From an uncultured Verrucomicrobia subdivision 3 bacterium (GTDB taxonomy: Bacteria > Verrucomicrobiota > Verrucomicrobiia > Limisphaerales > UBA11358), in contig CAINLR010000004.1 of assembly GCA_903850425.1 (NCBI GenBank), positions 1 through 64,000 on the forward strand: 64,000 nt of DNA. The letters run 5' to 3'. Made by a program: the position numbers and the translations under genes. The notes beneath the pieces are model-generated. The model had not been told where the DNA came from. It worked only from the letters and a program-made list of their open reading frames with translations, and did not search any database. How positions within the stretch are numbered: position 1 is the stretch's first letter; each line of letters begins with the position of its first letter. Positions 42,109 to 54,863 of the stretch are shown piece by piece.

Positions 42109-44346
42109 ATGGAAATCACTACTGAAACCAAATCAGCATCCGGTTTGACCACTCTCCCATCCGACGGCTTGCGCCAGATCATGTGGCGCTTTGCCGACCG
42201 TTATGAATTGCACATGCTCGTGCAGTCGGCGCGCGCCGTGGCGCGCGGGCCGGTCGCGCGGCTCGTGGCCGCCGGCGGACGCAATTCGCACGAATGGACC
42301 GCGGAGAAGCACAGCCTGCTTCAGCACTATGATGACAGCGGCATCACCGCGGCGTCGCTGGAGCCCGAACAAGGTGGTTACATTGCCGGGCCAAAGAATC
42401 TGGCGCTGGCCCTCATGGCGTTTGAACTCGCGTGGGTGGATGCCGGGGCTGCGACCGGCAGTCTGGCGAGCAATCTCGGCCTCGCGCCGATTCACGAACG
42501 CGGCACGCCGGAGCAGCGCGAGAAATACGTCGGCAACGCGGCGCCGCTCAAGCCTGGCGAAACCCGCACGCAGGTGCGCGCCGCCTTCGCGTTGACGGAG
42601 CCGATTCCGTTTGTCGGGGTCGAGACCGGAATGCTCGCGGGCAAAGTGCGCGTGGCGGAATGGAAGGAAGGCGCAGCGCCGTGGTTGCAGGTGGAAAAGC
42701 GCGGTCGTTTCATCACCAACATGGGCTTTGCCAACGTCGTCACGGCGGCGGTGAGTTCGGATGATCCCCGGATCAAGGGCAGTTGCATGGTCATCATGGA
42801 GGAAGGCGATCCGGGCATCTGGGATCGCGGCACCCCGACGAAGAAACTCGTCCACCAACTTTCCTCGACGAACGATCCGGTGTTCAACCTGAAAGTTCCC
42901 GCCAGCCGTATCGTCGGCGGCTACACCGTCAAGGACGGTGTCATCATCCCGAATTTTTCGCATGGCGACGTGATCGAAGCGGTCTTCCGCCGCACGCGCG
43001 TGACGGTGGGTTTGATGACTTCGGCGAAACTGCTTTCCGCCGTCGAGCCGGTGATTCTGTATCAGCGCCGCCGGTTTCGCGGTGGCGAAGGCGTGCCCGG
43101 TTCGCCGCGTTACGAACTCGGCATCCAACAAAAGGAAGATGCGCTGCACCGCCTCGTTGACATTTGGGCGACCGGCGAAGCCAGCGCGTCACTGGGCTTC
43201 CACGCCGCCCGGTTGTTTGATGAACTGGATCCGCTGGAAAAAGTGAAAGACCAGTGGCTGGCTGAAAAAAATCTGACCGGCCGCGCCGCGCTCAAGGAAA
43301 TGGCGAAGAAAAATGCCGAGGCGATGGAGTTGGTGGCGATCAATGCTCTGCCCGTCGGCGAACGGGATTTGAAACGCGCTGATAAATTGGAAGCCGATCC
43401 GCTGGTGCGATTTGCCGTGCTCGACTCGCAGGCCAATGTTTTCTGTCCCGCGTGCAAACTGTGGAACACCGGCTACGGCGCGAACATGATGCGCGAGGCT
43501 GTCAGCCTGATGGGCGGCTATGGCGTCACCGAGGATTGCCCCGGATTCCTCGGCCAGAAATGGATGGACGCGCAGCTCGAAGCCACTTACGAAGGCCCGG
43601 AAGCCGTGCAGCGATTACAGTTGTCGCTCACGATGACGAACGAGCTGTTCCTCGCGCAGTTCAAGCAGTGGATCGCTGAGTTGCGGCAGCTCGCGGGCAA
43701 ACGTCCCGGCACCGGTGCCTGCACGCTCGCCAGTGCGATGCAGCTCTGGTCCTGGACGCTCCATCATGCCCAGACGGCCGTGGATGCCGACGGCACGAAG
43801 CTGTTCCATAAATCGCGCCAGGGCGTGACCTTTCCATTGACGGATGCGCTGTGCTGGCTGCTCGCCGCGCGGCAGTTCATCCTCGACGTGGCGGAACTGG
43901 AAACCAAAGGCGCGGAAAATCCCTCGCTCGCCGACGGCCTCGACGGCACCGTGAACTTCTTCACCGACCTCTGCCATGTGCAATGCGCCCGCGCCGCCGG
44001 CGAGGTCAGCCGCGTTTGCACCGAACTGGTTTACGGTTACCAGCGGCATCCTGCCTGGGACGAGGCAAGCTGCCACGCCTGTTATTGCGCGGCGGAATTG
44101 GAATCGCTCGAAGGCATCATCCCCGGCATGGAAGACTCCGCCCGCGCCTACTCCGACGTGGCGGAAACCGGCGAGGAACATCCGTGCAAAGCCGGCCCGT
44201 GCGTGAAGTTTTACGGGCTGGAAGGCTTTGTCCGCCTGCGCGCCAAACTGGACGGCTGCCTCACCGGCAGCCGCCTCGCCAAAGATCGCGCCGCTGAATC
44301 GCTGACGAAGGTAATGACGCGTGAGGCGCTGGATTATCCGGTTTGA
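42109..44346 (+). CDS. Acyl-CoA dehydrogenase (large, about 745 residues)
   Basis: The 745-residue protein has an N-terminal dehydrogenase region with FAD- and substrate-binding segments (AAFALTEPIPFVG, RFITNMGFANVVTAA, HQLSSTNDPVFNLKVPASRIVGG), a helical middle domain with LLSAVEPVILYQRRRF, and a catalytic-type EATYEGPEAVQRLQL stretch with the glutamate in YEG. It then continues for about 220 residues beyond usual acyl-CoA dehydrogenases, with many cysteines (ASCHACYCAAE; HPCKAGPCVKF). It should oxidise an acyl-CoA and pass electrons to the electron-transfer flavoprotein encoded downstream. The long cysteine-containing tail is unusual, and the chain-length preference is unknown. Confidence 0.9.
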   Translation: MEITTETKSASGLTTLPSDGLRQIMWRFADRYELHMLVQSARAVARGPVARLVAAGGRNSHEWTAEKHSLLQHYDDSGITAASLEPEQGGYIAGPKNLALALMAFELAWVDAGAATGSLASNLGLAPIHERGTPEQREKYVGNAAPLKPGETRTQVRAAFALTEPIPFVGVETGMLAGKVRVAEWKEGAAPWLQVEKRGRFITNMGFANVVTAAVSSDDPRIKGSCMVIMEEGDPGIWDRGTPTKKLVHQLSSTNDPVFNLKVPASRIVGGYTVKDGVIIPNFSHGDVIEAVFRRTRVTVGLMTSAKLLSAVEPVILYQRRRFRGGEGVPGSPRYELGIQQKEDALHRLVDIWATGEASASLGFHAARLFDELDPLEKVKDQWLAEKNLTGRAALKEMAKKNAEAMELVAINALPVGERDLKRADKLEADPLVRFAVLDSQANVFCPACKLWNTGYGANMMREAVSLMGGYGVTEDCPGFLGQKWMDAQLEATYEGPEAVQRLQLSLTMTNELFLAQFKQWIAELRQLAGKRPGTGACTLASAMQLWSWTLHHAQTAVDADGTKLFHKSRQGVTFPLTDALCWLLAARQFILDVAELETKGAENPSLADGLDGTVNFFTDLCHVQCARAAGEVSRVCTELVYGYQRHPAWDEASCHACYCAAELESLEGIIPGMEDSARAYSDVAETGEEHPCKAGPCVKFYGLEGFVRLRAKLDGCLTGSRLAKDRAAESLTKVMTREALDYPV

Positions 44347-44854
44347 GCCTCACGCCAAGACGCTAAGGCGCAAAGAAATTTCAAACCTTTGCGTCTTGGC
44401 GGCTTTGCGTGAGAAAAATATGAGCAAGTTTTCCGAAAACGAAATTGCCCGCGAAATCGTGGATGCGGCTTTCCACCTTCACAAGGCACTTGGCCCGGGT
44501 TTGCTTGAAACAGTTTATGAAGTCATTCTCGCGCGCGAGCTGGAAAAACGTGGTTTGAGTGTCGTCCGGCAACAGCCGGTGCCGATTGTTTTTGGCGACC
44601 TGAAATTCGATGAAGGCTTTCGCGCCGATCTGATTGTCGAAAACAAAGTCATCGTTGAACTGAAATCCGTCGAACAAATCGCGCCGGTCCATAAGAAGCA
44701 ACTGCTGACGCTTCTCCGCCTCGCTGACAAGCGGCTCGGTCTTTTAATTAATTTTGGTTCCGTCGTCATCAAGGACGGCATTTCACGAATCGTAAACGGC
44801 CTGGAAGAATGAAGTGAAAATCTTTGCGCCTTTGCGTCTTTGCGTGAGTCAAAT
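44347..44854. mobile_element. Repeat-bounded GxxExxY cassette inside the etf operon
   Basis: Before the GxxExxY gene (44347-44419) lie two inverted stretches built on the words CGCCAAGACGC, GGCGCAAAG and CTTTGCG. After it (44818-44854) a third arm repeats TTTGCGTCTTTGCGTGAG-like sequence. Both the cassette gene and the next gene start with the same context, GCGTGAG followed 6 bases later by ATG. This gives direct repeats at the two edges, as if the gene was inserted and copied the start-site context. No transposase is present. Confidence 0.6.
44420..44812 (+). CDS. GxxExxY-family protein
   Basis: This 130-residue protein has the name-giving motif GPGLLETVYE (residues about 22-31), then FRADLIVENKVIVELKSVEQIAPVHKKQL, with a D...ExK core like the PD-(D/E)xK nuclease fold. 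ATG 44420 is chosen; the longer frame reads through the repeats. Such proteins are widespread, occur singly between other operons' genes and have no agreed function; a nuclease-like role is proposed from fold only. Here it splits the acyl-CoA dehydrogenase from the ETF:quinone oxidoreductase gene and is bounded by repeats, consistent with a mobile cassette. Confidence 0.9.
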   Translation: MSKFSENEIAREIVDAAFHLHKALGPGLLETVYEVILARELEKRGLSVVRQQPVPIVFGDLKFDEGFRADLIVENKVIVELKSVEQIAPVHKKQLLTLLRLADKRLGLLINFGSVVIKDGISRIVNGLEE

Positions 44855-46798
44855 ATGAACGAACAACCTCCATTCGAACGCCCGCGTATGGACGTGGACA
44901 TCGTCTGCGTCGGCTTTGGCCCCGCCACGGCGGGATTTCTCACCACCCTGTCCAAGCAACTCACCAACGCTGACGGCACGCCCGCCGTCGAAAGCGCCGT
45001 CATGCCCGGCATGCCGCCACAGGTGCTGTGCTACGAACGCGCCGATGACATTGGCTTCGGTGTCTCCGGCGTCGTGACGAAAGCACGGGCTTTGCGCGAA
45101 AGCTTTCCCGAAATCAAAACCGCCGGCATTCCGATGGCCGCGTCCGTCGGCGAAGAAAAGGTTCTCTACCTGCTCGATCCTCACGGCGCGAGCCGCCGCT
45201 CAGCGGCACTGCGTCTCGCAGATTCATTGATTCGGGCGACGAAGTTTGCTTTGCCCGTGGAGAACCACGCATTGAACTTGCCGTGGACGCCATCGTTTTT
45301 GCACAAGCACGACGGCATGATTCTCTCGATGGGCCAGTTCATGCAATGGGTCGGCGCGCAAGTGCAAAGCACCGGCACCATCCAAATCTGGCCCGGCACG
45401 CCGGTGGCGGAAGCGTTGATTGAGAACGGCGAAGCGGCTGCGGAGCGCGGACAGCCTTGTCCGCGAGTTTCAACCGGAGACGAAGGAACACGCGGACAAG
45501 GCTGTCCGCGCTCCAAAGTTGTCGGCGTCCGCCTGCTTGATCAAGGCGTGGACAAAAAAGGCGCTCCCGCCGACGGCTTCACGCCGGGCATGGATATCCA
45601 CGCCGCGCTGACAGTCGTCGCAGACGGTCCGATTGGTCCCATCGGCCGCCAACTCGACGAGATTTTTGGCTTGCCTGAGAACCACCACACCCGCGATTGG
45701 GCCGTGGGCATGAAGTTCGTCGTGGATTTGCCGGAAGACACCACGCTCAAACCCGGCACGGTGCTGCACACGTTCGGTTATCCCGAGCCGGAGATTTTTG
45801 GATTTCTCTACGTCCATCCCGACCGCGTCGCGTCGCTCGGCATTTTCGTGCCGTCGTGGTTCGACAGCCCGGCGCGCACGGCTTACCGCTATCTCCAACA
45901 TTGGATGCTGCATCCGAATCTCTGGCGTTATCTCAAGGGCGGCAAGCTCCGCTCGTGGGGCGCCAAGACGCTCGGCGAATCCGGCAAGCACGGCGAACCG
46001 CATCTCACCGGCGACGGCTACGCGCGCATCGGCGAAGGCAGTGGCACCACGAACGTCCTGACCGGCTCCGGCGTGGACGAAGCCTGGGCCACCGGCACGC
46101 AACTCGCCGAGGCCGTCATCGAATTACTCAAGGCCAAAAAACCGTTCACCAAACAAAACCTCGATGAAACCTACGTAAAACGCCGTCGCTCAAGCTGGGT
46201 GGAGGCCGAAGGCCGCGTCGCCGAAAAATCCCGCGACGGTTTTCAAAAAGGCGTCGCCACCGGCATGATCGGCATGGCGCTTGCCGGTTTGACGAACGGA
46301 AAATTCTCGCTCGGCCACGCGCCCGTGCAGCCGTGGAAACGCATTCCGACGGTGGAAGATTATTTCGCCGCAAAAATTTCCCGCGCAGAAATCGCGAAGC
46401 TCCGCGACGAGTGCAAAACGAAAAATGTTTCGCTCCACGGCGCGCTGATGGACAAAGCCGGCTGGCCCGCGATTCCGTTCGACGGCCAATTGCTCGTGTC
46501 GCATCAGGACGCGCTGCTGATGGGCGGCAAGGTGCAGGCGCCGCACGGCTACGCCGACCACGTCGTTTTCCTGCATCCCGAACTCTGCGAGAAATGCGGC
46601 GCGCGGATTTGCATCGAGGCGTGCAGCGGCCAGGCGATTTATCCCGGCGAAACCGGCGTGCCGGCGTTTGACCGCGAGAAATGCGTCCACTGCGGCGCGT
46701 GCCTGTGGAACTGCTCGCAGGCGAACCCGGAAGATTCTGAGCGCATGAACATCGCCTTCCGCGCCGGCACCGGCGGATTGCACTCGGCGGAGAATTGA
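44855..46798 (+). CDS. Electron-transfer-flavoprotein:quinone oxidoreductase-like FAD/4Fe-4S protein
   Basis: This is a 647-residue protein. It starts with an FAD-binding VDIVCVGFGPATAGF segment, has central regions shared with ETF-QO/FixC (TVVADGPIGPIGR, VLHTFGYPEPEIFGFLYVHPDRVASLGI), and ends with ferredoxin-type cysteines CEKCGARICIEAC and CVHCGACLWNC that ligate an iron-sulfur cluster. It would take electrons from ETF and deliver them to membrane quinone. The start at 44855 avoids the repeat-derived extension. Around residues 196-220 it contains an extra peptide (ERGQPCPRV...RGQGCPRS) encoded by a perfect DNA palindrome. Its 3' end is repeated three times downstream. Confidence 0.88.
   Translation: MNEQPPFERPRMDVDIVCVGFGPATAGFLTTLSKQLTNADGTPAVESAVMPGMPPQVLCYERADDIGFGVSGVVTKARALRESFPEIKTAGIPMAASVGEEKVLYLLDPHGASRRSAALRLADSLIRATKFALPVENHALNLPWTPSFLHKHDGMILSMGQFMQWVGAQVQSTGTIQIWPGTPVAEALIENGEAAAERGQPCPRVSTGDEGTRGQGCPRSKVVGVRLLDQGVDKKGAPADGFTPGMDIHAALTVVADGPIGPIGRQLDEIFGLPENHHTRDWAVGMKFVVDLPEDTTLKPGTVLHTFGYPEPEIFGFLYVHPDRVASLGIFVPSWFDSPARTAYRYLQHWMLHPNLWRYLKGGKLRSWGAKTLGESGKHGEPHLTGDGYARIGEGSGTTNVLTGSGVDEAWATGTQLAEAVIELLKAKKPFTKQNLDETYVKRRRSSWVEAEGRVAEKSRDGFQKGVATGMIGMALAGLTNGKFSLGHAPVQPWKRIPTVEDYFAAKISRAEIAKLRDECKTKNVSLHGALMDKAGWPAIPFDGQLLVSHQDALLMGGKVQAPHGYADHVVFLHPELCEKCGARICIEACSGQAIYPGETGVPAFDREKCVHCGACLWNCSQANPEDSERMNIAFRAGTGGLHSAEN
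45442..45514. repeat. Perfect 24-bp palindromic arms inside the ETF-QO gene
   Basis: Arms 45442-45465 and 45491-45514 are exact reverse complements around a 25-base centre, 73 bases in all. They are read through in frame as ERGQPCPRV, a short linker and RGQGCPRS. The flanking residues (ENGEAA before, KVVGVRL after) rejoin normal family sequence, so this is an insertion tolerated as an extra loop. Confidence 0.85.
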
Positions 46799-46807
46799 GA
46801 TTCCGCG

Positions 46808-46840
46808 TTGACAGAAAAAGACTTTGAGGACAATTTGTCC
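46808..46840 (+). promoter_or_regulatory. Promoter and palindromic operator of the HigBA module
   Basis: TTGACA (46808-46813) is followed after 15 bases by GACAAT (46829-46834). A perfect 13-base palindrome, GGACAATTTGTCC (46828-46840), covers the -10 and ends 2 bases before the toxin ATG. This fits autorepression by the antitoxin. There is no ribosome-binding site before the ATG. Confidence 0.55.
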
Positions 46841-46842
46841 CC

Positions 46843-47151
46843 ATGCGTATCATCGCCGAAGGCACCATCCGGCAATGGGCCGGAGACCACGCCCGCGCCG
46901 CCGGGTCGTTGCGGCAATGGGTCAAGGTAGTGCGCCTCGTCCGCTGGCGTTCCTTTGTCGAGCTGCGCCGAACCTTTCCGTCAGCCGACATGGTTATTGC
47001 AAAAAGCGGACGGAAGGTGATGGTGTTTAACGTGGGCGGCAATGAGTTTCGCCTGATCTGCGCCGTTCACTTCAACACAGAGATGGTGTTCGCCCTGCGA
47101 TTCCTGTCGCACGCCGAATACAGCAAAGACACTTGGAAAAATGAATTATGA
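46843..47151 (+). CDS. higB: HigB-type mRNA-interferase toxin
   Basis: This 102-residue protein matches the HigB toxin family: a W-rich first half (WVKVVRLVRWRSFVELRRTFPSADM), then VMVFNVGGNEFRLICAVHF and a final RFLSHAEYSKDTWKNEL. Such toxins cleave mRNA on the ribosome until bound by the antitoxin. The antitoxin gene overlaps by 4 bases downstream, the classical hig order of toxin first. The module sits directly after the ETF-QO gene, and a degraded copy of that gene's 3' end follows it. Confidence 0.9.
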   Translation: MRIIAEGTIRQWAGDHARAAGSLRQWVKVVRLVRWRSFVELRRTFPSADMVIAKSGRKVMVFNVGGNEFRLICAVHFNTEMVFALRFLSHAEYSKDTWKNEL

Positions 47152-47585
47152 AAACAGCCACTCGAACCAGCGCCAGTCCCGGATCCTTCGCCTCGTTGCC
47201 CAAGGATTACACCGGGCTTTGCCTGCGTTACGTTCCACGTCCGCTGCATGACGCCGCCGACTATGCCGCCGCCCGTCAGGCCATCGAACCCCTGCTGGGT
47301 TTTGAAGACCGGCTGAACGCGGATCAGACAGACTATCTTGAAGCGGTCAGTTCGTTTATCGAAGCCTACGACGAGACGCGAGTGAAGTGGCCCAAGGGCA
47401 ATCCAGTGGCAACGCTCCAGTTTCTCCTTGAACAGCACGACCTGTCCGCCGCCGACCTTTCGCGAATCCTCGGCAGCGACCGTTCACTCGGGCCGAAACT
47501 GGTGCGGGGGGAGCGCCGCCTGACCGTGGACCACATCCGCACACTGGCCCGGCGCTTCAACATCGAACCCGGAAGCTTGCTCTGA
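47148..47585 (+). CDS. higA: HigA-type antitoxin with helix-turn-helix
   Basis: This is a 145-residue protein. The N-terminal about 80 residues contain LCLRYVPRPLHDAADYAAARQ and an acidic region, as in long HigA antitoxins. The C-terminal XRE-like helix-turn-helix reads ATLQFLLEQHDLSAADLSRILGSDRSLGPKLVRG. It neutralises HigB and probably represses the operon through the palindrome at 46828-46840. It overlaps higB by 4 bases. Confidence 0.9.
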   Translation: MKTATRTSASPGSFASLPKDYTGLCLRYVPRPLHDAADYAAARQAIEPLLGFEDRLNADQTDYLEAVSSFIEAYDETRVKWPKGNPVATLQFLLEQHDLSAADLSRILGSDRSLGPKLVRGERRLTVDHIRTLARRFNIEPGSLL

Positions 47586-47616
47586 ACCACGCAACCTGAG
47601 CCGAACCGCCAGTTCC

Positions 47617-47745
47617 GACCGCGAGCAATGCGTCCATTGTGGCGCGTGCCTGTGGAACTGCTCGCAGGCGAACCCGGAAAATCCCGAACGCATGAACATC
47701 GCCTTCCGCGCCAGCACCGGTGGACTGCATTCGGCCGAGAATTGA
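47617..47745 (+). pseudogene. Copy A: duplicated 3' end of the ETF-QO gene
   Basis: These 129 bases align without gaps to 46670-46798, the end of the ETF-QO gene, with 117 identities (about 91%). The copy still encodes CVHCGACLWNCSQANPE and GLHSAEN and the same stop, but nothing upstream of it is a gene. The copy carries substitutions such as Lys to Gln and Gly to Ser, so it is not a fresh duplication. Confidence 0.9.
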
Positions 47746-47968
47746 ACACAATGAAAAATGCACATTACGATGGACCGACCCTTCATGGCCGAGCGGATCA
47801 ATTGACGGCAGTGCATTGGCAGAGTGCTTGGCAGAATTATCGGCTGGCAAGGCAGCTTGTCCAGTGCGTGTGCCATGCTACACACCTGCCGCGTATAAAT
47901 CATTCACTTGCATGTTTGCGGTTCTTGGGGATCAAATATAACCAGTGTCGAATCTCGGGATCAAAATT

Positions 47969-49573
47969 ATGAAAATCGTGCCCATTTTACTTTTGTCAGC
48001 CTGGTCAGCCACGGCTGAGGTCACCTTCAATTGCACCACCAATCACGGCACGATCACCATCAACGATTTCTTTAGCACGAACGACGTGCTGACGATTCCC
48101 AGCACGCTCCATGGAATGCCGGTGGTGAGCATCGAATATGATGAACGGGAATATTACCACTTTAGCACCATACGTCATGACGATCTGATTGAGGTCAACA
48201 TTCCCGCCACAGTTACGAACATCGGTTACAACTCGTTCCTCTCGGGTTGGACATCGGAATCACGAAATCTCGTTGAAATAAAAGTGGATCCGGCCAATCC
48301 GCGCTTCAGCAGTGTGGACGGAATCTTGTTTAACCAAGACAAAACCAAGCTCTACATTTTTCCAGCAGCCAAAAAACTCCAGTCGTATGCTGTGCCCGAT
48401 AGCGTAACTCTCATTGATTGGGGAGCTTTCTCTGATTGCGCCCACCTGACCAATGTTATTTTGGGAGCCAAGGTGGCCACCCTCAAAGAGGCAGCATTTG
48501 GCGGATGCAAAAACCTCACCCAGTTGCGCATACCCAAAAGCGTGACCTGTATCGAACCTGGCGCTTTGGATGATTCCCTCGCCATCGTCGTGGACGCTTT
48601 AAATCCCGCCTACTGCATCTCAGACGATGTCCTGTGGGACAAGCACCAAACCACGCTCATTCGATTACTGAGAAGTAAATCGGACAGCTATGCCGTTCCA
48701 AAGACCGTCACCAACATCGGCAACTTTGCATTTAGCAGCCGCCACAGCCTTACCAACATCGTCCTTGGCCCACAAGTCACGCAGATAGGAAATGGTGCTT
48801 TCAGAGGGTGCGACAAGCTTGTCAGCCTTACCTTGCCGGCTAAGATCGCTTTCATTGGCAATTATGCTTTTCAATCCTGCACCAGCCTGACGCAAATCAA
48901 GATACCTGACCGCGTCACGCGCATTGGGACCAATGCGTTCGCCAAATGTTATCAGTTGACCAATGTGATATTTGGCGACCAAGTCACCAACATCGAACAA
49001 GGAGCGTTCAACGATTGCAGGAAACTGACTCACGTCACATTGAGCAAGAATCTCGTGAGCATCGGTAGTTACGCGTTTCGCAATTGTGGCTTGACCAACA
49101 TTTTCCTTGGCCCCCAAATCAAGCAGCTAGGGCCTGACGCATTCAGCCGATGCGACAAACTGACCAGCCTTGTCCTTCCCGACACCATCACATTCATCGA
49201 AAATTATGCGTTTCAATCCTGCACCAGCCTGACGCAAATCAAGATACCTGATCGGGTCACGCGCATTGGAGCCGGTGCGTTTTCCCGATGCTATAGCTTG
49301 ACCAATGTGGACTTCGGCGAGAATGTCACTCACATTGAGGAGGCAGCATTTAGTAGTTGCCTGAACCTAACTCACGTCTCGCTGGGCAGAAATCTCGTGA
49401 GCATCGGCAGATATGCGTTCAACAAATGTGGACTGACGAACGTCTCTATCCCCAAAAGTGTGGTCAGCGTTGGCGAGTTGGCCTTTGGCTGCGATGCCAT
49501 AACAAATTCGCCGGGCCCGAAGGCTGTTACCAATCTTGACAGGATTGTCTTTCCGACAAACGGCTTGCGTTAA
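47969..49573 (+). CDS. Secreted BspA-like leucine-rich-repeat protein
   Basis: This is a 534-residue protein. After a signal peptide (MKIVPILLLSAWSATA) it consists of LRR_5/BspA repeats of about 23 residues, each with an IP..V..IG..AF..C..L pattern, for example VTNIGNFAFSSRHSLTNIVLG. Two blocks are nearly identical (DNA 48860-48927 and 49202-49269, 65 of 68 bases), showing a recent internal duplication. BspA-type proteins are cell-surface or secreted binding proteins. ATG 47969 is preferred over the GTG at 47945 because it starts the signal peptide. It is cargo between the duplicated etf-operon junctions and does not belong to electron transfer. Confidence 0.88.
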   Translation: MKIVPILLLSAWSATAEVTFNCTTNHGTITINDFFSTNDVLTIPSTLHGMPVVSIEYDEREYYHFSTIRHDDLIEVNIPATVTNIGYNSFLSGWTSESRNLVEIKVDPANPRFSSVDGILFNQDKTKLYIFPAAKKLQSYAVPDSVTLIDWGAFSDCAHLTNVILGAKVATLKEAAFGGCKNLTQLRIPKSVTCIEPGALDDSLAIVVDALNPAYCISDDVLWDKHQTTLIRLLRSKSDSYAVPKTVTNIGNFAFSSRHSLTNIVLGPQVTQIGNGAFRGCDKLVSLTLPAKIAFIGNYAFQSCTSLTQIKIPDRVTRIGTNAFAKCYQLTNVIFGDQVTNIEQGAFNDCRKLTHVTLSKNLVSIGSYAFRNCGLTNIFLGPQIKQLGPDAFSRCDKLTSLVLPDTITFIENYAFQSCTSLTQIKIPDRVTRIGAGAFSRCYSLTNVDFGENVTHIEEAAFSSCLNLTHVSLGRNLVSIGRYAFNKCGLTNVSIPKSVVSVGELAFGCDAITNSPGPKAVTNLDRIVFPTNGLR

Positions 49574-49614
49574 TCAGCAATAAGGATCGGAAACGGGTCA
49601 CCCAGCATTAAAGT

Positions 49615-49663
49615 AAAGGGGTCAGTTCTTAAAGGGGTCAGTTCTTGGTATTGACAACTATTG
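49615..49663. repeat. Solo copies of the RAYT element end
   Basis: AAAGGGGTCAGTTCTT occurs twice in tandem (49615-49630 and 49631-49646). The second copy continues with the same GGTATTGACAACTATTG that follows the left end of the RAYT element at 51147-51169. These are element ends without a transposase gene. Confidence 0.75.
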
Positions 49664-49691
49664 ATTACAAAGAATTCCTTTGCGCCTTTTC

Positions 49692-49850
49692 GCGGCCAAC
49701 CTGAAATTTTATGAGCACAGCCTATCAAATTGTTGTTTGCGGCAGCATCGTTCCCGATCCGCTGCAAACACTGAAAAAACGAAAAATCCCGAACGCATGA
49801 ACATCGCCTTTCGCGCCGGCACCGGCGGATTGCACTCGGCGGAGAATTGA
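49692..49850 (+). pseudogene. Copy B: etfB 5' end joined to ETF-QO 3' end
   Basis: Bases 49692-49773 match the native etfB start region (54035-54116), including the leader GGCCAACCTGAAATTTTATG and codons for MSTAYQIVVCGSIVPDPLQTL. After a short A-rich join, 49781-49850 matches the end of the ETF-QO gene (ERMNIAFRAGTGG...SAEN, stop). The order is head of etfB then tail of ETF-QO, reversed relative to the operon, as a tandem-duplication joint would give. Confidence 0.9.
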
Positions 49851-49935
49851 ATCAACCACGGATGGACGCGGATGAACACGGATAAAAACAAACTGTCGCG
49901 CAATGAATCCCAAAGGGATTTTCGGAACTTCGGTC

Positions 49936-50126
49936 GCGGCCAACCTGAGATTTTATGAGCCCAGCCTATCAAATTGTTGTTTGCGGCCGCCTCGTTCCCA
50001 CTCCGCTGCAGACGCTGCAACCCGCCCGTTGATTTACGATTTACGATTGGAGATTTCGGATTTGAAGAATGCGAAAAATGAAATGAGGCTGTCCGCCGTC
50101 CTTGATCCGTGGGCGGGCCATGCGCG
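49936..50126 (+). pseudogene. Copy C: degraded 5' end of etfB
   Basis: Bases 49936-50028 match the etfB leader and first codons (MSPAYQIVVCGRLVP). An insertion built on GATTTACGATTTACGATT follows. Then 50073-50126 matches etfB again (AAAAATGAAATGA...GTGGGCGGGCCA). The frame is broken by a stop in the insertion. The stretch 49851-49935 between copies B and C is only 85 bases and contains a CCACGGATGGACGCGGATGA-type sequence. Confidence 0.85.
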
Positions 50127-50279
50127 CGGGCGCGCAAAAAGCAATTAAGACTTTCCATTTTACCTCAATTTAATAACCTCGATAAGTTGCTCGCAGTTGT
50201 CCTCGATGACCGCTTCAAGGAAGCGGAGCCTAGACTTAGAAACTCAGAAATTATTGGTTTGCGTCAATCAACAAAAAAC

Positions 50280-51071
50280 ATGAAGTCCAACATCCAAACT
50301 CGCGCCGCCCAGCTCGCCTTTTGTGCTTTCAGCCTCGGTGCTATCGGTCTGCAAGCCCAAAACCTCCTGCTCAATGGCGATTTTAGCGCTGGCAACCAAG
50401 GCTTCGCCAGCGGTTATTCTTTTGTGGTCTCCGGCACCAGCCAGTCCCCAAACACAATTGGCATCCGGACCAGTTCGCAAGATTACAACCCGGGGTTTGT
50501 GCCATTCGCTGATCATACGACGGGCACTGGCAACATGCTACTCGTGGATGGTTCACAAAGCTCGGGCGTGACGGTTTGGAGCGAGACGGTTTCGGTCGCG
50601 CCGAACGCGCCCTATCTTTTTTCCGGCTGGGTCACCGCCGCTGACGACAGTAATTTGCCGACCCTGCGATTTTTCATCAACGGTGTTGCGGTCGGTTCGG
50701 ACCTGGCCTTGTCCACCCCGGCCGGCCAATGGCAGAAATTTTTGATCACTTGGAACTCGGGCACGAACACGAGCGCGACCCTGTCAGTCGAGGATGAAAA
50801 CACGGTGAGCTACGGCAACGATTTCGCTCTGGATGATCTCTCGTTTGCGTCCAGCACGGTGCCCAACCCGCCACCGTTGCTGAACCTGGCATCCGTCGGC
50901 AATCAAAGCGTGCTATTTTGGCCCTTATCCGCCACCAATTACGTTTTGCAAAGCACCACCAATCTGACCTCGCCCAATTGGACTGCGGCGAGTGATGCGG
51001 TGTTGGTGAAAGCTTATACCGTGACCAACACCACGCCGGGGCGTTTCTTTCGGCTCCAACTGCAACCCTGA
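50280..51071 (+). CDS. Secreted protein with carbohydrate-binding-like domain
   Basis: This is a 263-residue protein. A signal peptide (SLGAIGLQAQ) precedes LLLNGDFSAGNQGFASGY, the opening of CBM4/9-like jelly-roll domains, which continue to FALDDLSFAS at about residue 190. The C-terminal 70 residues (YVLQSTTNLTSPNWT...GRFFRLQLQP) form the short tail common on secreted Verrucomicrobial proteins. No enzyme motif is seen. It starts at ATG 50280; an upstream in-frame extension would run through copy C. It is cargo in the expanded etf junction. Its ligand is unknown. Confidence 0.75.
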   Translation: MKSNIQTRAAQLAFCAFSLGAIGLQAQNLLLNGDFSAGNQGFASGYSFVVSGTSQSPNTIGIRTSSQDYNPGFVPFADHTTGTGNMLLVDGSQSSGVTVWSETVSVAPNAPYLFSGWVTAADDSNLPTLRFFINGVAVGSDLALSTPAGQWQKFLITWNSGTNTSATLSVEDENTVSYGNDFALDDLSFASSTVPNPPPLLNLASVGNQSVLFWPLSATNYVLQSTTNLTSPNWTAASDAVLVKAYTVTNTTPGRFFRLQLQP

Positions 51072-51135
51072 TGGCCATTTGATACCAACGTGAAGGGGGC
51101 AGATGGCAAAGGCACAAAGGGGTCACAAGGGGTCA

Positions 51136-52170
51136 CAAAGGGGTCAGTTCTTGGTATTGACAACTATTGGTGGCGACGGCAATTTCCCCAGCATGGCGCG
51201 CAAGTTACGAGTGGAATATGCCGGTGCGATTTATCATGTGATGAATCGCGGGGATCGGCGTGAGGAGATTTTCAAGGATGACCCGGATCGGGAGCGGTTT
51301 TTGGTCACGCTGGGGGAGGTTTGCGTCAAGACGGGTTGGCAGATTCATGCGCTGTGCCTGATGCCCAATCATTTTCATCTGGTGGTCGAAACGCCGCAGG
51401 GGAATCTGGTGGCGGGCATGAAATGGTTGCTGGGCACTTACACGGCGCGGTTCAACCGGCGGCACAAGCTGTTCGGGCATCTGTTCAGCGGGCGTTACAA
51501 GGCGTTGATCGTGGACGGGAGCGGCACGGGGTATCTGAAGACGGTGTGTGATTATGTGCATTTGAATCCCGCGCGGGCCAGGCTGCTGACGCCGGAACAT
51601 CCGTTGACGGCGTATTGCTGGAGCAGTTGGCCGGATTATTTGAAGAGTCCGGGCAAGCGTCCGGCGTGGTTGCGGGTGGACCGGTTGCTGGGGGAGTATA
51701 AGATTCCGCAGGACAGTGCGGCGGGGCGGCGGGTGTTGGCGCAGGCGTTGGAGGCGCGGCGGCAGGCGGAGGCGGGCGCGGATTACAAGCTGATCCGGCG
51801 CGGGTGGTGCCTGGGTGAAGAATCATTTCGGAACGCGTTGCTGGCGCAAATGACGGAGCGAATCGGCGCGGAGCATTACGGGACCGAGCGGTTGGAAACA
51901 ACCGAGGCCAAAGCCGAGCGAATCCTGCGCGAGGAATTGAAGTCGCGGCGTTGGAAGGAAAGCGACCTGCTGAAGCGAGCCAAAGGCGACCTTGGCAAGG
52001 TGAAGATAGCCGCGCGATTGCGGGAGGAAACGCTGGTTACGGTGAAGTGGATCGCCACGCGGTTGGGAATGGGCACGGCGGGTTATGTGAACAACCGGTT
52101 GTATCGGTGGCGCAAGGGAACACTGGCATGAACGCGGACGAGTGAACAATACCAAGAACTGACCCCTTTG
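51136..52170 (+). mobile_element. RAYT transposase element with 24-bp terminal inverted repeats
   Basis: Bases 51136-51159 and 52147-52170 are exact reverse complements (core AAAGGGGTCAGTTCTT). They enclose a complete RAYT/Y1-type transposase gene. Extra AAGGGGTCACA-type words stand before the left end (51107-51140). Related ends without a gene occur at 49615-49663, and a fragment of a second transposase follows at 52174. Confidence 0.8.
51193..52131 (+). CDS. REP-associated tyrosine transposase (RAYT, Y1/IS200-like)
   Basis: This is a 312-residue protein. It starts MARKLRVEYAGAIYHVMNRGD, the usual RAYT opening, has the HUH metal-binding motif MPNHFHLVVETP at about residues 70-81, and the catalytic-tyrosine region CDYVHLNPARA at about 120-130. 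The C-terminal third is a helical DNA-binding extension (TVKWIATRLGMGTAGYVNNRLYRW). RAYTs are thought to move short palindromic repeats through single-strand cleavage. The start at 51193 is favoured over an earlier frame start because it begins the conserved domain. All key residues look intact. Confidence 0.92.
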   Translation: MARKLRVEYAGAIYHVMNRGDRREEIFKDDPDRERFLVTLGEVCVKTGWQIHALCLMPNHFHLVVETPQGNLVAGMKWLLGTYTARFNRRHKLFGHLFSGRYKALIVDGSGTGYLKTVCDYVHLNPARARLLTPEHPLTAYCWSSWPDYLKSPGKRPAWLRVDRLLGEYKIPQDSAAGRRVLAQALEARRQAEAGADYKLIRRGWCLGEESFRNALLAQMTERIGAEHYGTERLETTEAKAERILREELKSRRWKESDLLKRAKGDLGKVKIAARLREETLVTVKWIATRLGMGTAGYVNNRLYRWRKGTLA

Positions 52171-52173
52171 TTG

Positions 52174-52281
52174 TATCAGTTGATGAATCGTGGCGACCGG
52201 CGGGAGGAAATTTTCAAAGATGACCCGGATCGGAAACGATTTCTGGTCACACTAGGTGAGGATTTTCTCATGAGTGGCTGA
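52174..52281 (+). pseudogene. Fragment of a second RAYT transposase
   Basis: The stretch encodes a peptide reading YQLMNRGDRREEIFKDDPD followed by RKRFLVTLGED and then a stop. It matches residues about 14-45 of the intact transposase upstream but not identically. It starts 3 bases after the right inverted repeat, so it is the remnant of an older element next to the intact one. The following 52282-52457 has no recognised gene. Confidence 0.85.
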
Positions 52282-52457
52282 GAGGTTTCATTAATTCCCA
52301 ATACCCTTCCCTGGAAATCCAGCGCGGTTGGGAGTCTGCCGCGCTAACTCTTAGGATTCACCGGGCAAATACTTGGTGTTGGCTGGGTTATTTTCTTTCG
52401 TCCGCCCCCATTTTCAGCCAGAAATTTGGCGTGCGGATTTGCCTCCGTCATCATTGT

Positions 52458-52586
52458 GCCAACCTGAAATTGTATGAGCCCAGCCTATCAAATTGCTGTT
52501 TGCGGAGCATTGTTCCTGATCCGCTGCAAAAGCTTGAACCCGTCGCCTTCCGCGCCGGCACCGGCGGCTAGCGCTCGGCGGAGAAT
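52458..52586 (+). pseudogene. Copy D: etfB 5' end joined to ETF-QO 3' end
   Basis: 52458-52541 matches the etfB leader and first codons (MSPAYQIAVCG...), with a one-base loss after TGCGG. From about 52541 it continues as the ETF-QO tail (GCCTTCCGCGCCGGCACCGG), which now contains a TAG stop. The two sources meet at the shared word TCGCC, so the joint has microhomology. This is more decayed than copies A-C. Confidence 0.85.
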
Positions 52587-52631
52587 AATAAATGTTTGAG
52601 TGAACAATCCGATGACTGCCCCTTTCTTGAT

Positions 52632-53942
52632 ATGCAAAGCAAAGCGCAATCTTTCACCCGGCTCCTGACCTTGCTGACATGGAGTGTTTTTTTGACCGGA
52701 GCCGAGCGGTTGTCGGCTGCTCCCACCATATTTTCCTCCGTCCCAGCCAACGGCTCGACCGGGGTGTCGCCTGCCACCACATTGACGCTGAATTTCAGTG
52801 AGGCCATGAACACCACAGCCACCACGGTCATGGTGATAGCTGGCTCGCAGATGGTCACGGTCTCCCCGGCTTGGAATGCCGGCAAGACCATCCTGACCTG
52901 CACGCCCACCACCGCCTTGCCGGTTAATCAGATGATCACTTGGGTGGCAAGCGGAACGAGCGCCGCCGGTGTGGCGCTCGGTGGCACCACCTATGGCACG
53001 TTTACCACCCTGGCACCCAATACTGGCTGCGACCCGACGGCCTTGGAGCTTTCACTGACGGTTTCCAAGAACGGCATGTATTTGCAGGCTGCCACCAACG
53101 CGCCGACGCCCAATCCCAGCTCGTCGAATGTTTTTCTGGCGTGCATGTCCTTGCCCTGTCCGCGCGACGCCACCAATATCAGCCTTCAAATGCCCGGCAG
53201 CGCGGTGTCCAACCTCACGCTAGCATACCCCGGCCACCTGACGCTGACGGATATCGGTCATGCCAGTCAGCCGGGGTTTGATACCACTTATCCGGCCGGC
53301 AATTACATCTTCACCATCAAGGCCGTGAACTCCAATCAGACGGTCTCGGTCAATTTTTCGTCCAGTCTCACCGCGCCGCCGGCGCCGCACCTGAGCAATT
53401 ATCTGGCGGCCCAGGCCATCAACCCGGCGCAGCCGTTTGTGCTGAGGTGGGACCCGCTGGCGGGCGGATCGGCAGCCGATGTCATCTACGTGGAGATTTA
53501 TGGCGGGTATTTTAACACCCCGGCTCTGGGGAATGCCGGCTCGCTCAACAGCACGGTGACCTCGGTGACCATTCCGGCGGGGACCCTGCAAGCCAACCAA
53601 ACCTACTCCGGTTGCGTCACGTTTTATCATTGTCTGCTGGTGACCAATGGCGCGACTTATCTGACGCTGACGTACCGAGCGGCCACCACGGAGTTTGGAT
53701 TGCAGACTGGCACCGGCAGCACACCGCTGGTTTTGACGCCGGCGGGATGGAGCGGGGGAAGTTTTTCCTTCGACTCCACCTGCACGAACGGCCAGGCGTT
53801 GACTGCGGAATACACCACCAATCTGGCTCCGCCGCATTGGACCACGCTCTATTCCACCAACAGCCCGGCTGCGCGAGTGCGCTTTAGCGATCCCCATGCA
53901 GCCACCAACCGGCAGCTTTTTTATCGGGTGCGCACGCCGTGA
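52632..53942 (+). CDS. Secreted protein with bacterial Ig-like (SbsA/Big_5) domain
   Basis: This is a 436-residue protein. A signal peptide (LLTLLTWSVFLTGAERLSAA) is followed by a Big_5-type Ig domain (FSSVPANGSTGVSPATTLTLNFSEAMN, residues about 33-130; quoted in part). After that come beta-rich regions with no enzyme motif and a C-terminal PHWTTLYSTNSPAARVRF...FYRVRTP tail typical of secreted Verrucomicrobial proteins. The ATG at 52632 is chosen since it begins the signal peptide. It lies between copy D and the true etfB gene. Function is unknown; an extracellular or cell-surface location is likely. Confidence 0.75.
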   Translation: MQSKAQSFTRLLTLLTWSVFLTGAERLSAAPTIFSSVPANGSTGVSPATTLTLNFSEAMNTTATTVMVIAGSQMVTVSPAWNAGKTILTCTPTTALPVNQMITWVASGTSAAGVALGGTTYGTFTTLAPNTGCDPTALELSLTVSKNGMYLQAATNAPTPNPSSSNVFLACMSLPCPRDATNISLQMPGSAVSNLTLAYPGHLTLTDIGHASQPGFDTTYPAGNYIFTIKAVNSNQTVSVNFSSSLTAPPAPHLSNYLAAQAINPAQPFVLRWDPLAGGSAADVIYVEIYGGYFNTPALGNAGSLNSTVTSVTIPAGTLQANQTYSGCVTFYHCLLVTNGATYLTLTYRAATTEFGLQTGTGSTPLVLTPAGWSGGSFSFDSTCTNGQALTAEYTTNLAPPHWTTLYSTNSPAARVRFSDPHAATNRQLFYRVRTP

Positions 53943-54053
53943 GACGGATGCCTCACGGAAAGATTCGAAGAGATGAGTCAGCGCTTGATGTTGACTACTA
54001 TTAATTGATCGCAACGACTCTTTTTGCGACTGTCCCGGCCAACCTGAAATTTT

Positions 54054-54863
54054 ATGAGCACAGCCTATCAAATTGTCGTCTGCGGCAGCATCGTTCCCGA
54101 TCCGCTGCAGACGTTGGAACCCATCGCGTCGCCCACCGGGCCGGCGTTGAAAAATGAAATGATGCTGCCCGCCGTCCTCGATCCGTGGGCGGGCCACGCG
54201 CTTTACGAAGCCGCCAACCTGGCGAAAAACCAGCCCGGCAGCAAAGTCTGGCTCGTCAGCCTCGGCCCGAAAGCCAAGCTCCAGCAGGTGATGATGACCG
54301 TCGCGCAAAAAGTGCCGTTCGAACTCGTCGCGCTCGACGGCTCGGCCAGCGGTTTCACCGACGCCACCGAAACAGCGGCAGCGCTCGCTGACGCCATCGC
54401 CGCCATTCCGGGCCTCGACAAATCCAGGCTGCTCGTTTTCGGCGGCTGGGAATCCGCCTCGCGCGGCGCGGGCGCGACGATGCAAATGGTCGGCGAACGC
54501 CTCGGTCTCGTGGATCAATTTCAAGGCGTGGATCAACTCACGGTGAACGCCGACGGTTCGCTGGAAATTTTGGAGCGCATCGAAGGCGGAAAGCATCAAG
54601 TCTCGAAATGCGCGGGCGCACCGGCGTTGCTCGGCTGGGCCACGGGCAATTTGCCGGAGCCGAGGAACAATCCGCAGGTCGGCATGGTCAACATGCGCAC
54701 GGTGATGCCAGCATTGCAAAAGGCCAAGCCGACGAAGCTGGCCGGTGAAGGTTTGAGTTTCGCCAGCGTGGCGCTACCGAAACAACTGCGCGAAACGCAA
54801 ATCGTGAAGGACAAATCGCCGGACGACATCGCGAAGGAAATTGTCGAGTGGATCAAGAAGTAG
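54054..54863 (+). CDS. etfB: Electron transfer flavoprotein beta subunit
   Basis: This 269-residue protein has the EtfB plan: YQIVVCGSIVPDP at the N terminus, a conserved NEMMLPAVLDPWAGHALYEAANL segment (residues about 35-56; shown in part), VWLVSLGP, and the GWESASRGAGATMQMVGERLGL region that contacts AMP and FAD. With the alpha subunit it accepts electrons from the acyl-CoA dehydrogenase encoded upstream and passes them to the ETF:quinone oxidoreductase. Its 5' end is copied three times in the upstream 5 kb. The alpha gene follows 38 bases later. Confidence 0.95.
   Translation: MSTAYQIVVCGSIVPDPLQTLEPIASPTGPALKNEMMLPAVLDPWAGHALYEAANLAKNQPGSKVWLVSLGPKAKLQQVMMTVAQKVPFELVALDGSASGFTDATETAAALADAIAAIPGLDKSRLLVFGGWESASRGAGATMQMVGERLGLVDQFQGVDQLTVNADGSLEILERIEGGKHQVSKCAGAPALLGWATGNLPEPRNNPQVGMVNMRTVMPALQKAKPTKLAGEGLSFASVALPKQLRETQIVKDKSPDDIAKEIVEWIKK

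Follow-up and report, generated by a model that had tools for sequence, protein, structure and literature searches.

In an uncultured Verrucomicrobia subdivision 3 bacterium (order Limisphaerales; assembly GCA_903850425.1, contig CAINLR010000004.1), the genes ETF-QO and etfB are both intact, point in the same direction and are separated by 7.3 kb; within the window, the 64,000-nucleotide stretch of DNA analysed here, the gap between them is occupied by unrelated genes bordered by broken copies of the ends of ETF-QO and etfB themselves. Comparison with relatives indicates that the ETF-QO/etfB junction hosts unrelated genes in many uncultured Verrucomicrobia, that broken ends of both genes border the pieces, and that some of these pieces appear to have moved between families. 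We regard the locus as a real, recurrent and locus-specific array, for which tandem amplification and artefact are disfavoured as explanations, and the region in the window as, on balance, probably one allele of a long-lived, recombination-fed array of accessory genes at the ETF-QO/etfB junction of Limisphaerales-type Verrucomicrobia.

Layout of the junction in the window

Truncated copies of the ETF-QO tail are denoted T and truncated copies of the etfB head H, the corresponding ends of the parent genes being T0 and H0. An earlier note on this DNA had placed such copies at four sites in the gap (A to D, Table 1); repeat search, whole-assembly search and locus scan return the same coordinates and the same compartments. 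The gap runs T0 - HigBA - T(A) - 73-aa open reading frame (ORF) and leucine-rich repeat (LRR) protein - H.T(B) - 83-bp spacer - H(C) - secreted protein and RAYT - H.T(D) - immunoglobulin (Ig)-like protein - H0, and all six ORFs called in it are on the + strand. When the whole 6.9-Mb assembly of the window's own genome (labelled G000) is searched at the DNA level with the ETF-QO end, the junction tails are recovered at E values of 2.3e-45, 3.4e-22 and 1.1e-11, and the only tail match outside the junction is one of 25 nt on contig C1 (E 4e-4). A protein search of the same genome detects etfB-head pieces at B and C only, the head at D being too short and visible in DNA. In copy C, a GATTTACG-type short repeat (50023-50072) substitutes for 24 nt after position +72 of H; in copy D, which contains one of only two readable fused joints, head and tail overlap by 5 nt (TCGCC). 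Chance matches as the source of the copies are ruled out by E values reaching 2e-45, the weak matches of the outgroup being unanchored.

The earlier note had also considered amplification by tandem duplication. In one form of this, a unit made of ETF-QO end, cargo and etfB start would be duplicated and its cargo would diverge later. Such a duplication would produce the H.T order of B and D, and in one relative (G030) T is followed by two stretches of 160 bp with 94% identity. The window's occupants, compared at E 1e-6, are nevertheless mutually unrelated rather than paralogous, apart from a RAYT remnant next to the RAYT itself, and some copies elsewhere match other lineages; because the occupants are unrelated, tandem duplication is in our view very improbable here.

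Anchoring, shared scars and locus specificity

The locus scan covered 30 genomes, partly selected for having matches, and identified 27 T copies in 12 genomes and 21 H copies in 11, together distributed over 18 genomes and 8 families; a start-trimmed own etfB (G163), scored as an H copy by the script, was removed from these counts by hand. The copies are anchored at the gene ends: 23 of the 27 T copies end no more than 5 nt from the ETF-QO stop and 16 of the 21 H copies start no more than 5 nt from the etfB ATG, the opposite end being truncated in both classes, and H copies extend to between +43 and +177. Some scars are shared across families. Five genomes from four families carry the same repeat insertion after +72 of H, namely G000 (in copy C), G099, G137, G134 and G110; a hairpin insertion in T is common to G006 (family f1) and G134 (f37), and the H.T fusion of copy D apparently recurs in G134 contig C366 (58/74 aligned nt, 3 gap positions); since they are common to different families, such scars point to modules with a history of their own rather than to fresh accidents. 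These common breakpoints, together with divergences of 4-30% between copies and genes and the recurrence of copies across assemblies of many projects, make an assembly or binning artefact hardly credible, even with drafts resembling metagenome-assembled genomes throughout and several copies located at the edge of a contig or on a short one (G047, G110, G156, G261, G263).

The idea, put forward in the earlier note, that the junction is regenerated each time cargo enters holds in part: after most events a T or an H remains on one side, whereas T and H are kept as neighbours, 4-5 bp apart inside an array, only in G099, where the etfB start codon has been lost.

Locus specificity was assessed by comparing the heads and tails of 362 ORFs (458 kb from the window genome and relatives, array loci included) with DNA up to 25 kb away. 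Among these ORFs, no gene outside the ETF junction has an end-anchored copy at least 80% identical. The background consists of weaker anchored matches (66-74%), mostly within other ORFs with one outside an ORF at 66%, and of several unanchored short matches (80-88%); the one anchored match at 81% is an occupant inside the G031 array. Since a longer antisense ORF masked the window's etfB, the etfB heads fell outside this control.

Alleles of the junction in relatives

Searching 320 genomes of the order at E 1e-3 gave 77 with a match to the ETF-QO end and 78 with a match to etfB, weak ferredoxin- or ETF-like matches included. The two genes lie close together on one contig in 19 genomes (G026 C243, in which the contig cuts the ETF-QO end, was left out) and on separate contigs in many others. 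The 19 gaps measure 5, 6, 9, 10 and 14 bp (G017, G100, G021, G024 and G088, respectively), 49, 97, 373 and 656 bp (G265, G257, G118 and G066), 1.2-2.4 kb in seven genomes (G163, G142, G136, G003, G262, G099 and G137), and 7.3, 9.9 and 11 kb (G000, G249 and G060). T or H copies are found in none of the nine junctions with a gap below 1 kb and in five of the ten with a gap of 1.2-11 kb (G000, G003, G060, G099, G137). Relatives therefore include empty, simple-occupant and multi-occupant alleles, with empty ones inside a single genus (G017, G021, G024) and in G100 beside G099. This comparison, in which the same occupants also turn up in different arrays, bears out the insertion hot spot proposed from the window and shows it to be wider than was proposed.

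Within the window's genus, etfB was found in 13 of 49 genomes, and copies in nine of these 13, the one in G002 being weak (an H copy, 79% of 47 nt). In two genomes, G006 (L036 8687-8844) and G071 (L096 4035-4188), the etfB near ETF-QO is reduced to a genus-like head remnant and an intact, more divergent etfB is located on another contig. ETF-QO and etfB lie 3.2 Mb apart in the single-contig genome G107 (C1), and the pair is thus not always an operon. A set of 80 loci around relatives of etfB in named genomes (Verrucomicrobia for the most part, with some Acidobacteria and others) yielded anchored copies only in records already in the order's set; weak panel matches at the outgroup loci are internal.

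Cargo and apparent exchange of modules

Toxin-antitoxin genes are recurrent cargo: HigBA (G000, G030, G134, G146), DUF2281 with PIN (G006), Phd with PIN and a HicB-like gene (G099), DUF2281 (G163), and a helix-turn-helix (HTH) antitoxin-like gene (G031). Other cargo comprises a nitroreductase, a flavodoxin-fold oxidoreductase, an ammonium transporter, an acyltransferase, a PPDK-like protein, a DEAD helicase, a kinase, GH3, GH94 and LRR proteins. The clearest case of a module is T-HigBA, 82% identical between G000 and G030 over 790 nt that begin 4-5 nt beyond T and stop shortly after higA; its left side is alike and its right neighbours differ in the two genomes, a single clear case of this kind. 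In G134 (f37) and G146 (f43), HigBA likewise follows ETF-QO and has a T copy behind it, the arrangement seen in G000. Short leaders also accompany different cargo, a T leader (about 46 bp, downstream of T) being common to G030, G031 and G060, and H leaders (27-81 bp, upstream of H) to G000, G026, G134, G137 and G142. Module order varies between the sister species G030 and G031, PPDK standing ahead of the nitroreductase in the former and behind it in the latter. An NAD(P)H oxidoreductase adjoins etfB in both G066 (f1) and G163 (f51), inside a 2-kb alignable block. Cargo begins 0-24 nt after T in G066, G006 and G003, so a GGAG in the ETF-QO tail may act as its ribosome-binding site.

No tyrosine or serine recombinase was found among 37 occupant proteins scanned, the Y1 transposase apart, a scan that took in part of the listed array ORFs. 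This bears on whether integrative elements carrying such a recombinase might target the ETF-QO 3' end or the etfB 5' end, restore the gene end and accumulate in tandem. Gene-end repeats between tandem occupants do resemble attL and attR sites, and some scar ends recur; however, the copies (28-209 nt) are constant at their near ends only, their far ends varying yet clustering, and the ends of both genes are copied, so that an origin in integrative elements seems quite unlikely.

A proposed mechanism and the evidence that bears on it

Under the recombination-fed reading, a cell would take up DNA from another strain or species with different genes at its ETF-QO/etfB junction, and the incoming ETF-QO tail or etfB head would pair with a resident copy, allowing a homologous crossover on one side. 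The second side would be joined without homology; alternatively, the fragment would circularise first and be integrated by one crossover. Cargo would be gained, a truncated resident tail (T) or head (H) would remain as a scar, and selection would retain one functional ETF-QO and one functional etfB. The scars and their adjacent short leaders would in turn become further homology arms, with cargo-plus-scar modules being rearranged and exchanged among families. The steps that we infer from the anatomy of the arrays are DNA uptake, the joining reaction, the use of scars as arms, and selection. One-sided homologous recombination with a non-homologous second joint would account for all three kinds of scar (T alone, H alone and H.T), for foreign origin and for arrays that grow by addition; the same H.T joints would result if linear DNA circularised and then underwent a single crossover, a route mentioned for Escherichia coli in the accessible part of one source (PMC3240628).

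Three cases suggest import. The Phd-PIN unit common to G099 and G134 is identical at 622/704 nt (88.4%), versus 629/810 (77.7%) for etfB and 817/1030 (79.3%) for ETF-QO (Fisher 3e-8 and 7e-7), G134 being 7% contaminated and carrying the unit on a different contig from its etfB. The G031 H copy matches G136 at 60/68 positions and the etfB of its own contig at 46/68; the G146 T copy matches G003 at 94/112 and the ETF-QO of its own contig at 78/112. Informative sites agree with the other lineages at 15/16 and 19/22, respectively. Copy trees, whose support is low on 70-150 nt, were relied on for two clear cases alone. An ORF starts 21 nt after the G146 copy (L120 3697-3808). Foreign origin, as expected of homology-facilitated illegitimate recombination, is thus seen in these three cases, with sources chosen post hoc, and one-sided homology in T-HigBA of G000 versus G030.

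Several observations weigh against this account. The sources of the G031 and G146 copies were picked post hoc as best matches, which flatters their P values (5e-4 and 9e-4), and the G146 copy is situated not in the gap but some 30 kb upstream of ETF-QO. Scar ends are non-random: T copies measure 28-209 nt, the sole longer one (386 nt) being at a contig end, and H ends cluster near +66-86 and +147-158; such clustering and a ceiling of about 200 nt are not predicted by simple one-sided joining. Microhomology would be expected at the illegitimate joint; copy D has its TCGCC overlap, but the joint of copy B has an overlap of at most 3 nt (GAA) and extra unexplained bases. ComEC, which bears on DNA uptake by the host, occurs in 18/18 genomes, yet also in 10/14 controls; being common, it says little. 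Ku was found in 0/13 etfB-bearing genomes of the genus and in 1/49 genus genomes overall; since those 13 lack Ku, classical end joining was rejected as the second joint. Apart from one single-contig genome, which has no copies, every genome here is a draft or comes from a metagenome. HigBA divergence mostly tracks that of core genes (78.5% between G000 and G134, versus 80.4% for ETF-QO), and a large share of the array may accordingly be ancient and inherited; the G134 T copies and the G099 H copy bear changes typical of their own host, indicating local origin or gene conversion.

These last two observations would suit an ancient, vertically inherited array, in which scars and cargo predate the split of the families and were then subject to loss, decay and partial homogenisation by gene conversion, with little or no present transfer. 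The T-HigBA-T arrangement, found in three families at a divergence close to core, and the oxidoreductase block next to etfB in f1 and f51 argue in the same direction. Purely vertical descent sits less easily with a Phd-PIN unit more similar than the core genes, with the G031 H and G146 T copies being closer to other lineages, with the different module order of sister species and with the empty alleles noted above in the same genus and in G100 beside G099; we consider it a possibility of some weight, short of probable. Taken together, the signals of import, the core-like divergence of HigBA and the host-specific copies suggest an array that is both old and still mixing, in which some copies and cargo look imported.

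The RAYT and its end sequence

As in a REPtron, a RAYT gene in the window is accompanied by its own end sequences, its cleavage activity being putative. At 52174-52287, abutting the inverted end sequence, lies the remnant of a second RAYT start (77% to 51232-51345). Such a Y1 (HUH) transposase might drive the array by cutting and joining single-stranded DNA at end sequences near T and H, thereby causing breaks, fusions and moves. The elements are indeed found at these loci: the G000 genome has three Y1_Tnp matches, the best of them in the 7-kb junction; one of 12 such matches in G030 and one of 10 in G134 fall in the array contig; and related RAYT sequence is present in array contigs of G030 and G134, in G134 C160 and in G263 C722. 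The end sequence has eight copies in G000, three of them in the junction, and strong matches to it number seven in 535 kb of array loci versus none in either 291 kb of own-genome control or 1.26 Mb of other loci. Of the three copies in the junction, however, two are the RAYT's own ends; in eight other genomes searched, only one of six matches at the stringency used is in an array contig; most T and H copies have no end sequence beside them; and the gene lists of the G060 and G099 arrays contain no RAYT. In G030 and G134, a T or H copy is cut short by RAYT or repetitive extragenic palindromic (REP)-like sequence, as a passenger would do. We consider a RAYT-driven array unlikely. Doubtful too is the idea that the ETF-QO tail and etfB head have turned into the recombination sites of a dedicated cassette system that spans the order and needs no site-specific integrase; T and H scars and their leaders would then be portable attachment arms that travel with cargo from family to family, and the resident RAYT, cutting single-stranded DNA at its ends, would aid new fusions.

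Other features of the window

Pfam scans of the 73-aa ORF (47751-47972) and of the protein at 50280-51071 gave no match. The LRR gene contains two internal 300-nt repeats, 74% identical (48747-49388). Within ETF-QO, a 28-bp inverted repeat (45442-45514) lies in frame at about residues 199-231 (RGQPCPR...TRGQGCPRS); similar peptides are encoded also on contigs C12, C16 and C99 of the genome, and the stretch is absent from several relatives. A PDDEXK_3 (PF13366) gene at 44321-44812 stands between an acyl-CoA dehydrogenase gene and ETF-QO and may be a second occupant, farther upstream in the operon.

Table 1. Genes, gene-end copies and RAYT sequences at the ETF-QO/etfB junction of the window
Feature	Coordinates	Strand	Basis and remarks
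ETF-QO, intact	44840..46798	+	Last 129 nt (46670-46798) are the parent of T copies; ORF list, Pfam ETFQO_UQ-bd and Fer4, repeat search
HigB toxin, occupant 1	46843..47151	+	PF09907, E 6e-21; same T-HigBA arrangement in G030, G134, G146
HigA-like antitoxin	47148..47585	+	HTH match only below Pfam cut-off; 84% to G030
Copy A, ETF-QO tail (T)	47617..47745	+	129 nt, 91% to 46670-46798; repeat and DNA searches
73-aa ORF	47751..47972	+	Begins 5 nt past T copy A; stop overlaps LRR start codon
BspA-type LRR protein, occupant 2	47969..49573	+	PF13306, E 1e-101
Solo RAYT end sequence	49631..49663	+	33 nt identical to 51137-51169; 47 bp upstream of copy B head
Copy B first half, leader and etfB head (H)	49690..49776	+	Repeat search, locus scan
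Copy B second half, ETF-QO tail (T)	49780..49850	+	Repeat search, genome DNA search, locus scan
Copy C, leader and etfB head, form H*	49934..50125	+	Head pieces 49934-50020 and 50073-50125, interrupted by GATTTACG-type repeat
Putatively secreted protein, occupant 4a	50280..51071	+	ORF list; secretion judged by eye
RAYT (Y1 transposase)	51193-52131, within 51137..52171	+	PF01797; end sequence 51137-51169, inverted copy 52147-52171
Copy D, etfB head fused to ETF-QO tail (H.T)	52458..52586	+	Head from about 52458, tail ends 52586; repeat search, locus scan
Ig-like (Big_5) protein, occupant 5	52596..53942	+	Pfam
Leader (54033-54053) and intact etfB (54054-54863)	54033..54863	+	PF01012, repeat search

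Significance and comparison with known systems

If the recombination-fed reading is true, the junction of a core metabolic operon can serve as a gene-cassette platform with its own gene ends as the sole homology arms, and the origin of hot spots that lack tRNA genes or integrases becomes testable. Each scar would be the record of an event, and past gene captures could be reconstructed from the alleles of one locus across the order. As a caution, junctions of this type break short-read assemblies.

A literature search that covered few subscription journals found nothing in print on an ETF-operon array. Integron cassette arrays are promoter-side, carry toxin-antitoxin and small-enzyme cargo, are mostly codirectional when compact, and have a shuffled order. 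The ETF array shares with them the promoter-side position, this type of cargo, the mostly codirectional arrangement in compact arrays and the shuffled module order; it differs in having no integrase among the scanned occupants (no genome-wide search for IntI or attC was made) and in that gene ends of variable length take the place of attC sites as its repeats. Staphylococcal cassette chromosome (SCC) elements are tandem integrative elements at a gene end. In the tandem integrative elements of tDNA and dusA islands, so far as the accessible parts of the sources describe them (PMC4891358, PMC4482086), target-gene ends are likewise repeated between units; the ETF array, by comparison, has no recombinase in its scanned occupants, lacks a constant far end and contains copies of both flanking genes. 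The TnpAREP/REP system (REPtron), as portrayed in the available portion of PMC8266576, resembles the ETF array in combining a Y1 (HUH) transposase with end sequences, which are present in several arrays; unlike the REPtron, the end sequence here is low-copy (eight in the genome) and its role in the array hypothetical.

Orphan modules of Rhs and contact-dependent inhibition (CDI) systems, in the excerpted account of PMC5361080, also form strings of displaced 3' pieces beside an intact gene; the ETF array has no displaced C-terminal toxin, and ETF-QO and etfB retain their ends. The nearest printed analogue found appears to be the orphan immunity-gene arrays of the Vibrio cholerae type VI secretion system (T6SS), which the same partial source attributes to homology-facilitated illegitimate recombination (PMC5361080); as a similar process has been used to explain these, the earlier statement that no system like the present one had been described was too strong. 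Both kinds of array would consist of tandem imported modules at one conserved anchor, built by one-sided homology and an illegitimate joint, with older pieces displaced and no integrase needed. In V. cholerae, as far as that text goes, the anchor belongs to a weapon and the cargo consists of effector and immunity genes (PMC5361080). In the ETF array, by contrast, a metabolic gene pair provides an anchor at both of its ends, non-coding gene ends form the scars, the cargo is functionally unrelated, and the hot spot extends across families of an order.

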